Assembly (NCBI GenBank): GCA_019634165.1 | Contig: JAHQVT010000010.1 | Span: forward strand, 496,001-560,000 | Direction of reading: 5' to 3' | Origin: Rhodospirillales bacterium | GTDB taxonomy: Bacteria; Pseudomonadota; Alphaproteobacteria; Rhodospirillales; Thalassospiraceae | Length of the DNA stretch: 64,000 nucleotides | Part shown: positions 58,054-60,787 of the stretch, piece after piece | How positions within the stretch are numbered: the first letter of the stretch is position 1 | Layout of the letters: every line of letters begins with the position of its first letter | Notes under the pieces: model-generated | Seen by the model: only the letters and a program-made list of their open reading frames with translations | Databases searched by the model: none | Told to the model about the DNA's origin: nothing | Position numbers and translations under genes: made by a program

Positions 58054-58893
58054 CTAAGGTGTGATCTGGTAGACATCGGTCGGACATTTGAAATAGCACA
58101 CACGATCAAAATCTGACTGAACGGGCATCGTAACCACAAGATCTCCAAACGCGGATGCCATAGTGGGTATGAGAATTTTGGGTGGTTCTTTGGGCATATA
58201 GATCGGTGGCAATGCGCCCGCTACGATTACAAGCCAATGCTCGTCACAATGTTGATATCCTTTGAGAGCCTTGTGTTTCTTTAGGAGTATTGGCACGAGG
58301 TCCTCATCAGTGAAATCCGACAATACTCCTCCCCGCGAACCACAAACGCAGGTGAATTTGTGTCCGTCGTTTAAAAGCTGAATATGCTGTAGGAATTCGG
58401 GTATTTCCTTGCACACGCTGAGGATCTGTCCTGTGTCTCCCCTAAAATCCTCCTTGTCACGAACAAGACGTCGCACTGAGTGATGCGCCATATTTTCTGA
58501 AACACGTTCAATCTCAGGGACAACTGCGTCCAACGCCTTCGCAACAGCACTCTTGGCGACAGGTATTTCATCATTGAAGATCAGACCTATTTCCAAATGC
58601 AGCTTTGGTTTTACACGTTCTAGTAACTTTCTGGCAAAATCTCGGTGGGCTTGTTCAATCTGCTTTGAGGGAAAGTGCGTTCCATGAAGATTGCGCACCG
58701 CCATCGTGATTTCGACGCCAATTAAACGTCCCCTAACAACCATAAGGAAATCGGGCCTTTCGGCGCATTTCAAGCTGTCGTACTCGATACTGTCAGCTTT
58801 AGTAAACCAGTGTAACGCAGTCAGCTCTTCCAATTTCTGCGGGTTTTCGGCTTCCAGCTTTTCCAGAAGCGCGTCGTAGATTTTTGTTTCCAT
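58054..58893 (-). CDS. Hypothetical protein with possible PD-(D/E)XK-like motif
   Basis: A 279-residue protein I do not recognise. Residues 46-64 (ERPDFLMVVRGRLIGVEIT) have the spacing of a PD-(D/E)XK nuclease core (Asp48, Glu61), followed by the helical KQIEQAHRDFARKLLERV. The C-terminal half contains a CVCGSRGGVLSD segment and a HCDEHW motif. No membrane segment or signal is present. Its DNA looks AT-richer than the core genes around it. It lies alone in the accessory pocket beside tRNA-Arg, and no methylase or restriction partner is present. The nuclease reading is a weak structural guess. Confidence 0.6.
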   Translation of the reverse strand: METKIYDALLEKLEAENPQKLEELTALHWFTKADSIEYDSLKCAERPDFLMVVRGRLIGVEITMAVRNLHGTHFPSKQIEQAHRDFARKLLERVKPKLHLEIGLIFNDEIPVAKSAVAKALDAVVPEIERVSENMAHHSVRRLVRDKEDFRGDTGQILSVCKEIPEFLQHIQLLNDGHKFTCVCGSRGGVLSDFTDEDLVPILLKKHKALKGYQHCDEHWLVIVAGALPPIYMPKEPPKILIPTMASAFGDLVVTMPVQSDFDRVCYFKCPTDVYQITP

Positions 58894-59277
58894 CCGGAGA
58901 GTATAACATGTGATTACCGTGCTAGGCAGGCAGCCAAATCTGGTAATTTAAGAGCCTAATCTCAAACATGTCCTCTAGGAAAACGCGACAATACAAGGAC
59001 TTGAGAGAACCGTTCATGATGTTCTTTCCCGTTCCCAACTTTAAAGACGGGGCAGAGCAACCGCAGTCGCGCCAAATAACAGCCCCAAAAGGCACGTGTA
59101 TTGGAGAAATAAACTTGGGGAAATTGGCGCACCCGACAGAAGTTTGCCTGTATTGATTCGAATAAATTAACGGGTTGACCGGCAACTAGGTGTGATTGAA
59201 ATACCTGTCTTGGTCACCCATTTGGTCTACCGGATTGATACACGGGATGTGGTTATCGGGCAAAGGTGTTGTTTAGA
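58894..59277. other. Accessory intergenic region with a tRNA-end copy
   Basis: A 384-bp gap without a credible gene. It contains the 19-bp copy of the tRNA-Arg 3' end (59121-59139), and TTTGGTCTACC (59221-59231) that recurs at 60620-60630 just before the tRNA. Confidence 0.6.
59121..59139. repeat. Copy of tRNA-Arg 3' end (candidate attachment site)
   Basis: AAATTGGCGCACCCGACAG is identical to 60707-60725, which covers the CCA end, acceptor stem and first T-arm bases of tRNA-Arg. GGGG also precedes both copies, with a two-base length difference. This is the expected product of tRNA-targeted integration; the two copies bracket the divergent membrane-protein genes. Confidence 0.75.
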
Positions 59278-59886
59278 TTAACTTGTCGATTGAGTTGGAT
59301 TCAGTTCTGACGACAGGCTTTTGGCATCAAACAATCCTTTCACGCATTTTACCGTTATGATTGCGCATGCCATGAAAAGGCTAAACCAGCTCAATGCCAA
59401 CAGGAAAAATATGTATATATTTGATACATCTACGCTATTTAGAACAGCACCAAGAAAAATTCGGGGCGCGAACGCGGCGCAGAAGAGTAAGCCATAAACA
59501 AAAACTCCAAGTGATACGAACTTCCAATAGTGATTTTTGAATATCGGCTTTATTTCTATTCTGATTATGTTTCCCAATTCATCCATGATTGTTCGAATGT
59601 ATTCGTTCCCAGATTTATATTTCATAATTTTATTGAATGGGTTTTTCTTCTCTAGAAGATATTTTATCTCATCTGATGTCGCGTTTAACCCATGTAGGGC
59701 GAAGAAATTTCTTTCAATTAGGTAGTCATGTGTTTCTGAGATGTTGTTGCTTAAAAATATCTTCTCTGCGATTTCCTGTTTATGCTTGGAAGTGTTCTTT
59801 ACAATTGCCAAAACAGACACAAAGATACCGATAAAGACGGCCAGCATTGAACCTACTTTGAAGATAATTTCGTATTCATCACTCAT
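59278..59886 (-). CDS. Small membrane protein of unknown family, paralogue A
   Basis: A 202-residue protein from ATG 59886. One N-terminal helix (VGSMLAVFIGIFVSVLAIV, residues 11-29), a cytosolic or periplasmic stretch of about 90 residues with HDYLIERNFFALHGLN, then two C-terminal helices (FVSLGVFVYGLLFCAAFAP and IFFLLALSWFSLFMACAII). It is clearly related to its divergent neighbour: both share TM, SK..EIA.KI, HD(Y/F)L.E..F, YL.E, TM, TM, VK..K order. ATG 59904 is also in frame, but ATG 59886 aligns with the partner's start and is exactly symmetric to it about the promoter dyad. DNA is strikingly AT-rich. Function unknown. Confidence 0.75.
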   Translation of the reverse strand: MSDEYEIIFKVGSMLAVFIGIFVSVLAIVKNTSKHKQEIAEKIFLSNNISETHDYLIERNFFALHGLNATSDEIKYLLEKKNPFNKIMKYKSGNEYIRTIMDELGNIIRIEIKPIFKNHYWKFVSLGVFVYGLLFCAAFAPRIFLGAVLNSVDVSNIYIFFLLALSWFSLFMACAIITVKCVKGLFDAKSLSSELNPTQSTS

Positions 59887-59907
59887 TGATATCCGTCCTT
59901 CCATTGT

Positions 59908-59965
59908 TTCTTCGCTAATTAATTAGCGATAACATTGACGTTATTATTAATTAATTAGCGAAGAA
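59908..59965. promoter_or_regulatory. Inverted repeat at the axis of the divergent pair
   Basis: TTCTTCGCTAATTAATTA (59908-59925) is the exact reverse complement of TAATTAATTAGCGAAGAA (59948-59965). ATAAC/GTTAT (59929-59933 with 59940-59944) extends the dyad inside. The left arm also forms the perfect 18-bp palindrome TCGCTAATTAATTAGCGA (59912-59929). The dyad axis (59936.5) is exactly midway between the start codons at 59886 and 59987. Confidence 0.8.
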
Positions 59966-59986
59966 CAATCGGGAAGTTGTGGTTCA

Positions 59987-60598
59987 ATGAGTGAAGATAC
60001 CCTGATTAAAATTGTCCCTTTCATCACACCAATTTTCGTTGTGATGGTTGCGGCATCTCTCAACCATTTTCTGACCATCAGCAGAACCCGGTCCAAAGAT
60101 AACTTCGAAATAGCACAGAAAATTATTGGCGAAGGCGGTATCGACACCGCACACGATTTCCTTTTGGAGGTCCAGTTTCAGAGCCTATACAAAGCGAACA
60201 TCGAAGCGCCTGTAATCAGGTATTTGATGGAGCAGCCTTACCCAACAAAGAAGTTCAAATTGTATGCGCGAGGCTTCAAATTCTTCGACCATTCAAAGTC
60301 CGAAGATGGCCAAATAACTACCATCCATCTCATCGAAAAATACAGAGATGAAAAAAACCGTAAACGTACTGTTTTGAAAGGAAACATTCTCTATTGGGTC
60401 TATTTCTCAATCGGAGCAGTACCGCTCGGCTACTACCAAAATGAACTGGCAGATCTCTTTATGAGGGGAGAATATAGCCTCGCCATTCAAGCTATAATGT
60501 GGTTTGGCGGCTTTTCTTATCTCGCAGTTAAGTCGATAAAAGATGCTGTCGGTTTGGATCGGGCAAAAGAGCTCGTCGATTCATTACCAGTGGACTGA
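59987..60598 (+). CDS. Small membrane protein of unknown family, paralogue B
   Basis: A 203-residue protein. N-terminal helix (FITPIFVVMVAASLNHFL, residues 12-29), central soluble stretch with SKDNFEIAQKII, TAHDFLLEVQFQSLYKAN, VIRYLMEQPYPTKKFKLY and a more charged middle than paralogue A (YRDEKNRKRTVLKG). Two C-terminal helices follow (WVYFSIGAVPLGYY and AIQAIMWFGGFSYLAV), then KSIKDAVGLDRAKELVDSL. The order and spacing match paralogue A, encoded divergently 100 bp away. ATGAGTGA follows TCA at both starts. GGGAAG lies about 10 nt upstream. No family is recognised. Confidence 0.78.
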   Translation: MSEDTLIKIVPFITPIFVVMVAASLNHFLTISRTRSKDNFEIAQKIIGEGGIDTAHDFLLEVQFQSLYKANIEAPVIRYLMEQPYPTKKFKLYARGFKFFDHSKSEDGQITTIHLIEKYRDEKNRKRTVLKGNILYWVYFSIGAVPLGYYQNELADLFMRGEYSLAIQAIMWFGGFSYLAVKSIKDAVGLDRAKELVDSLPVD

Positions 60599-60706
60599 TT
60601 TACGGGCTTTGGTCTTCAGTTTGGTCTACCATCATGACGAACGAGAACTCTGCGCAAGAAGAATCACATAGACAATTCAATATGTTAGGTGGAAACCATT
60701 GGGGAA

Positions 60707-60725
60707 AAATTGGCGCACCCGACAG
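60707..60725. repeat. tRNA-side copy of the 19-bp direct repeat
   Basis: Identical to 59121-59139; it overlaps the 3' end of the tRNA-Arg gene on the minus strand, so integration here keeps the tRNA intact. Confidence 0.75.
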
Positions 60726-60787
60726 GATTCGAACCTGTGGCCTTTGCCTTCGGAGGGCAACGCTCTATCCAGCTGAGCTACGGGTGC
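60711..60787 (-). tRNA. tRNA-Arg (anticodon CCG)
   Basis: Read on the minus strand: acceptor GCACCCG pairs with CGGGTGC, D-arm GCTC...GAGC, anticodon arm TTGCC/GGCAA with loop CTCCGAA (anticodon CCG, reading CGG codons), T-arm ACAGG/CCTGT with loop TTCGAAT, discriminator G and an encoded CCA end. The gene is intact at 77 nt and borders the accessory pocket on its 3' side. Confidence 0.97.

Follow-up and report, generated by a model that had tools for sequence, protein, structure and literature searches.

In the window, by which we mean the whole 64,000-nucleotide stretch of DNA that was analysed, two divergent open reading frames encode predicted membrane proteins of 202 and 203 amino acids, as the original prediction had it, and the start of both genes falls within TCAATGAGTGA:

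59278-59886, minus strand: gene A, an open reading frame for a membrane protein of 202 amino acids (P0001), homologous to gene B and grouping in the tree with the single gene of genome G015 (support 98/96)
59987-60598, plus strand: gene B, an open reading frame for a membrane protein of 203 amino acids (P0002), grouping in the tree with the gene of the tRNA-Gly cassette of genome G020 (support 98/96)

If an earlier ATG in the open reading frame list is taken, the product of gene A becomes 208 amino acids long. The blocks SK..EIA.KI, HD(Y/F)L.E..F and VK..K, on which the likeness of the two products had first been claimed, are present in both P0001 and P0002, and the proteins align above background, the point on which the claim of kinship turned: BLASTP gives 28% over 172 amino acids (E = 8e-17), and a global alignment scores z = 11.7 against 500 shuffles. 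The codon-aligned coding DNA of the two genes is 41% identical (246/594). Gene A and gene B are true, distantly related homologues.

Both products had been described as carrying one N-terminal helix and two C-terminal helices. This order stands by hydropathy and by comparison with relatives, but in P0002 only the N-terminal segment passes the strict hydropathy cut of 1.5, its C-terminal hydrophobic stretches peaking at approximately 1.2 and 1.3. At the same cut, an N-terminal stretch and two C-terminal ones are found in 7 of the 11 members scanned; of the other four, P0002 and P0005 miss it in their C-terminal stretches and P0006 and P0015 in their N-terminal one. AlphaFold models of the window proteins, built from an alignment with two rows (the window proteins themselves), were poor, with mean pLDDT of 52.6 and 41.8, and the helix layout is therefore based on hydropathy and relatives. 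A comparison with solved structures gave no meaningful match (best E = 0.34). For the family, sequence and hydropathy point to one membrane helix at the N-terminus, then a soluble domain of some 90 residues whose core reads I..L.....P, and lastly a membrane hairpin at the C-terminus.

The DNA between the two genes is symmetrical:

59876-59997, no strand assigned: dyad covering both start codons, with extended 58-nt arms at 59876-59933 and 59940-59997
59908-59925, plus strand: left perfect 18-bp dyad arm, from the inverted-repeat scan
59948-59965, minus strand: right perfect 18-bp dyad arm, from the inverted-repeat scan
59913-59928: palindrome CGCTAATTAATTAGCG, overlapping the left perfect arm

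The dyad axis, at 59936.5, lies exactly midway between the start codons, and the 18-bp arms are perfect, just as first described. The extended arms form 42 of 58 possible pairs, against 31 for the runner-up centre anywhere in the 64 kb of the window and a maximum of 30 among 200 Markov control sequences of the 1.3-kb region. The dyad is far above chance. It is 76% alike over 122 nt, as compared with the 41% identity of the coding DNA, which indicates that the leader has been constrained or homogenised. A promoter scan found no sigma-70-type promoter pair in the dyad, its matches being no commoner than in shuffles (3 versus a mean of 3.9). A leader motif, whose pattern was built from the sequences of the window and of G020, occurs among the 29 genomes of the genus, with up to 3 mismatches, twice in the window, once upstream of the G020 gene and nowhere else. 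While the symmetry is observed, we infer from it an operator through which gene A and gene B would be co-regulated.

The pair and its dyad are enclosed by repeats derived from the 3' end of a tRNA gene:

59037-59120: native spacer, to the left of the left 19-bp repeat
59121-59139, plus strand: left 19-bp direct repeat AAATTGGCGCACCCGACAG, attL-like, an exact repeat of 60707-60725
59221-59231, plus strand: left copy of an inner 11-bp direct repeat TTTGGTCTACC, possibly a recombinase arm site
60620-60630, plus strand: right copy of the inner 11-bp direct repeat TTTGGTCTACC, likewise a possible recombinase arm site
60707-60725, plus strand: right copy of the 19-bp repeat AAATTGGCGCACCCGACAG, overlapping the 3' end of tRNA-Arg
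60711-60787, minus strand: tRNA-Arg (ccg), intact, detected by ARAGORN, the insertion target

With up to 2 mismatches allowed, the 19-bp repeat has two copies in the 4.28-Mb genome, and both flank the pair, the repeat-to-repeat spacing of the insert being 1,586 bp. In two sister genomes, G001 and G014, the site is empty and the native spacer runs continuously into the tRNA (59037-59139 aligned in G001, 59074-59139 in G014). Between the repeats, no open reading frame longer than 67 amino acids was found beyond the two genes, and the GC content of the insert is 0.40 versus 0.51 for the window. Taken together, the repeats, their uniqueness and the empty sites indicate that the pair makes up all the cargo of a cassette of about 1.6 kb, and they bear out the tRNA-linked, mobile setting originally suggested for it. 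The inner repeat TTTGGTCTACC is absent, at up to 1 mismatch, from the corresponding regions L006 of G020 and L005 of G015.

Genomic islands and hitchhiking elements that target tRNA genes are known, tycheposons being one example. The window cassette resembles them in that its cargo is bracketed by repeats of the tRNA 3' end and related genomes have an empty site, but differs in its size of just 1.6 kb, its content of two genes and the absence of a tyrosine integrase of its own. The integrase family PF00589 has no match in the cassette or elsewhere in the window (contig C10); the host genome holds three matches, on contigs C6 and C12, two of which read as XerC/XerD while the third adjoins tRNA-Arg(tct). 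Given the duplicated tRNA end, insertion most likely occurred by site-specific recombination, and given that no tyrosine integrase lies inside, the cassette would either have been moved in trans or have lost its enzyme. The sole tyrosine integrase of this genome that is not XerC/XerD-like, at L087 9754-10397 on contig C6 beside tRNA-Arg(tct), is a possible trans-acting enzyme for the cassette.

The sequence leading from the tRNA into a cyclase gene was found in 29 of 29 genomes of the genus, and the opposite side of the site was examined in 20 of the 29 (L063-L082). The gap between a nucleosidase gene and the tRNA is about 100 bp in some genomes (G001, G024) and filled by differing inserts in others: the tRNA-Arg(ccg) site is an insertion hotspot. 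The insert of G006 encodes a Fic protein (SoFic, E = 5.2e-27), the one PADLOC match among 8 proteins scanned from such inserts in 6 genomes of the genus. Inserts elsewhere include a 368-aa gene in G003, read as restriction-like, and a 357-aa gene in G012. The window itself holds a second insert beside the cassette, a gene at 58054-58893 on the minus strand (279 amino acids) that is absent from G001. No family could be assigned to its product, the best matches being DUF3322 in Pfam (E = 0.023) and PDC-M03A in PADLOC (E = 0.05), while by eye a stretch reading ERPDFLMV..GVEIT looks like a PD-(D/E)xK nuclease motif.

The family occurs in 3 of the 29 genus genomes, one of them that of the window. 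The single family gene of G020 lies at tRNA-Gly(ccc), in a cassette of 1.1 kb that is flanked by an exact 56-nt copy of the 3' half of that tRNA, and the leader of this gene has the palindromic motif in common with the window. In G015, a single family gene lies between open reading frames read as murG and an acetyltransferase, with neither direct repeats nor the leader motif. Two further features of the G020 locus may be recorded. The duplication there (L006 1233-1337 and 2361-2464) extends past tRNA-Gly and takes in the end of a gene resembling MarR, its outer part being 86% alike; another strain may be the source of one copy. A second feature, at L006 2143-2360 on the minus strand and immediately upstream of the family gene, is a stop-interrupted tail resembling a serine recombinase, whose stop codon falls inside the shared palindromic leader, so that the leaders would retain the last codons of such a tail. 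This tail has no match among plasmids and none in Pfam at 0.01; the name recombinase comes solely from a genus open reading frame read as a resolvase (L029; 39%, E = 1.3e-3) and a weak match to a Tn3 resolvase (E = 0.53).

The original prediction derived the locus from a single gene that was duplicated locally, together with its promoter, in inverted orientation, the copies then diverging into the subunits of a two-component complex. The exact dyad axis, the leaders more alike than the coding DNA and the homology of the genes are all as such an origin would have them, and a tree of 12 family members places the four genus proteins together, at 82/84, below the support level that earns a star. 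The same tree, however, pairs gene A with the single gene of G015 and gene B with the single gene of G020, each at 98/96, so that the closest kin of either window gene is a single gene in another species; the coding DNA, at 41% identity, also tells against it, and no such divergent pair turned up elsewhere, the family being single in the 2 other genus carriers and no second copy being reported at 9 loci outside the genus. We therefore regard a local inverted duplication as improbable. Judging from the branching of the tree, the split between gene A and gene B probably predates the cassette. An old duplication within a cassette, with copies later lost in G015 and G020, is a less likely alternative. 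Because the relatives stand alone, a complex of the two products is not a trait of the family, and neither gene seems to need the other.

No named family had been recognised for these proteins, and this was confirmed: with membership requiring that the score of the whole protein exceed the curated cut-off, or that E be ≤ 1e-3 where a library has none, neither window protein belongs to any family of Pfam, NCBIfam, PHROGs or PADLOC. The best Pfam match of P0001, PF22571, was rejected as an assignment, having E = 0.0082 but 16.3 bits versus the 27 needed. P0002 had no Pfam match, PADLOC gave nothing at E = 1 for P0001 or P0002, and PHROGs and NCBIfam gave nothing below E = 0.02 for either. Among the relatives scanned with PADLOC (P0004, P0005, P0006, P0009, P0010 and P0011), there was likewise no match at E = 0.5. 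Word searches of the literature found no paper on the family.

Entry into the wider family came from tblastn with P0005, which gave one weak plasmid match (E = 7e-3); tblastn with P0001 and P0002 against plasmids and with P0002 against phages gave none. Relatives were found on plasmids of Cupriavidus, Klebsiella/Enterobacter and Agarilytica, in a Yersinia P2-like phage, in genomes G520, G479 and G691, and in viral records L083-L086. Profile comparison linked A2 to A3 (98.4%, E = 5.9e-15), A2 to A10 (97.9%), A10 to A9 (96.4%), A10 to the Agarilytica protein (97.2%) and A9 to G520 (96.0%). The direct comparison of A2 with A9 reached 63.9% only, and the phage members are accordingly joined to the family through A10; G479 is a probable member only (E = 3.4e-5; hhalign 61.8%). 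Records counted once were those of Klebsiella and Enterobacter, which are 100% alike, L084 with L085, and the two Yersinia phage records with L083.

The family is rare. Among 398 genomes of the phylum, A2 finds only the window's own, a search with A5 matched three more genomes of that set, of which one was dropped, and in the class of G520 there were matches in 6 of 369 genomes, of which four were dropped. The matches dropped before counting (G230, G859, G830, G826 and G612) were short, weak or contained stops, the stops being in two weak ones, G230 and G859. In the viral-contig scans, the viral loci came from the P0011 query alone; no relative was found in viral contigs with P0001, P0002, A4 or P0006, nor in genome contigs with A1 or A4, short patterns being ill-suited to so divergent a family. 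The window proteins belong to an undescribed family.

The suggestion that the pair sits in a defence-like setting was examined through the neighbours of relatives at nine loci outside the genus (Cupriavidus, Klebsiella, Agarilytica, the Yersinia phage, L084, L086, G691, G520 and G479). It is supported by at least one scanned neighbour matching a PADLOC family at 7 of the 9, a raw count over neighbours picked by eye and without a background rate; with G479 left aside, the count over these eye-picked neighbours is 6 of 8. The scan covered 6 of 13 annotated neighbours in Cupriavidus, 3 of 13 genes in Klebsiella, 4 of 21 in Agarilytica and 1 of 14 in the Yersinia phage, and, at the unannotated loci, two open reading frames each in L084 and G691 and one each in L086, G520 and G479. 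In Cupriavidus the neighbours include a ThsB-type TIR protein (1.5e-63), PDC-S20, PDC-S06 and PDC-M40B; in G691, HEC-01A (1.3e-152) and HEC-01B (4e-54); in G520, Old (6.5e-68); in the prophage L084, OloA and OloB; in Agarilytica, ShosT and ShosA; in the Yersinia phage, Ppl (PADLOC) and TrlF (NCBIfam, 9.4e-139); and in G479, MkoA (E = 0), at a locus where three tandem open reading frames read as integrases. At a threshold of 1e-3, PADLOC had no match for 1 of 6 scanned neighbours in Cupriavidus, 2 of 4 in Agarilytica, 3 of 3 in Klebsiella and 1 of 1 in L086, so that no known defence family appears among the scanned neighbours in Klebsiella or the prophage L086. In the host genus, none of the genes directly adjoining the family is a known defence gene: P0003 had no significant match, and the G015 neighbours are those already given.

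Strong as it appears, the association with defence genes is uncontrolled. HEC-01, ShosTA, Olokun, Mokosh-like and OLD systems each neighbour the family at one locus, whereas the PADLOC models of these systems do not match the window proteins, and since the neighbouring systems vary between loci, no fixed partner is implied. In G691 the family gene shares its strand with the defence genes and is separated from HEC-01A by 139 bp; in Agarilytica it lies on the defence-gene strand, 61 bp from the gene after ShosA. On the Agarilytica plasmid pSU2 (L011 5888-8585), ShosT, ShosA, a 231-aa gene and the family member follow one another on one strand, as if in an extended ShosTA operon. Unnamed proteins adjoining family members at L086 3490-4263 and L010 8710-9666 look membrane-like by eye, have no PADLOC match and are possible partners.

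In the annotated Yersinia phage vB_YenM_42.18, the family copy lies between gpA and gpQ, an interval that Rousset et al. (2022, PMC9122126) describe as a defence hotspot of P2-like prophages and as the location of the P2 exclusion genes old and tin. The IMG/VR records L083-L086 similarly carry a relative next to an open reading frame read as gpQ, and the modules beside these gpQ-side relatives change, with TrlF in L083 and Olokun in L084; the L083 protein is identical to the Yersinia phage relative, and L084 and L085 cover the gpQ side only. The window locus differs in being a 1.6-kb tRNA cassette and not a prophage, and the available text of PMC9122126 was not found to name its family.

From the company that these genes keep, together with the belief, stated in PMC9122126, that transmembrane proteins in known defence systems are suicide effectors, we propose a role against phage, and the window proteins probably represent an undescribed family of phage-defence protein. 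The best joint reading, to which we give a probability of roughly 0.55, is that they are membrane-anchored phage-defence proteins, old paralogues under a shared operator, carried on a tRNA cassette that has no tyrosine integrase. Gene A and gene B make up the whole cargo of the cassette, which spans 1.6 kb and was inserted at the tRNA-Arg(ccg) 3' end, most likely by a site-specific recombinase acting in trans or since lost; as old, separate lineages set head to head, they would have similar leaders that together make a symmetrical, co-regulating operator. The soluble part of the protein might sense an infection cue, upon which the membrane helices would disturb or block the inner membrane, leading to abortive infection or exclusion. 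In sum, the mobile-defence part of the original prediction gains support and its inverted-duplication part loses it.

The nearest rival to this reading is superinfection exclusion, in which the proteins would block phage entry or DNA injection at the membrane rather than kill or arrest a cell already infected. Hydropathy makes the proteins membrane-bound, and the relatives in P2-like prophages adjoin gpQ, where PMC9122126 places old and tin, but 6 of the 9 outside loci are plasmids or chromosomal loci, not such prophages, and we consider exclusion possible yet unlikely. Two divergent genes that share an operator-like dyad on so small a mobile cassette also recall cassette maintenance of a toxin-antitoxin-like kind, one paralogue neutralising the other and the cell becoming addicted to the cassette; the single occurrence of the family in G015, G020 and the outside loci makes this very doubtful. 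We think it just as improbable that the genes are neutral or decaying passengers with no selected role. Their sparse distribution, the stop-interrupted recombinase-like remnant of the G020 cassette and the stops in two dropped matches would suit passengers, but the frame is open in each of the 12 members of the tree, and in ten columns of their alignment at least 9 of the 12 share one residue.

Returning to membrane-anchored phage defence, a more specific and distinctly speculative version, a little less likely than exclusion, holds that the family is one of stand-alone membrane defence proteins and the cassette a specialised form of it, in which two anciently diverged paralogues under one operator would form a hetero-oligomer, one sensing and one acting, on a minimal tRNA cassette that lacks an integrase and would be moved between genomes in trans.

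If the defence reading is true, an unnamed membrane family joins the candidates for phage defence, with members on plasmids, in P2-like prophages and at chromosomal loci across the Proteobacteria. The cassette is a very small natural unit of two genes, one operator and one tRNA, which can be cloned in one piece and is ready for testing. It would also mean that defence-like cargo need not bring its own tyrosine integrase to occupy a tRNA gene, a point of relevance to the spread of such small inserts.
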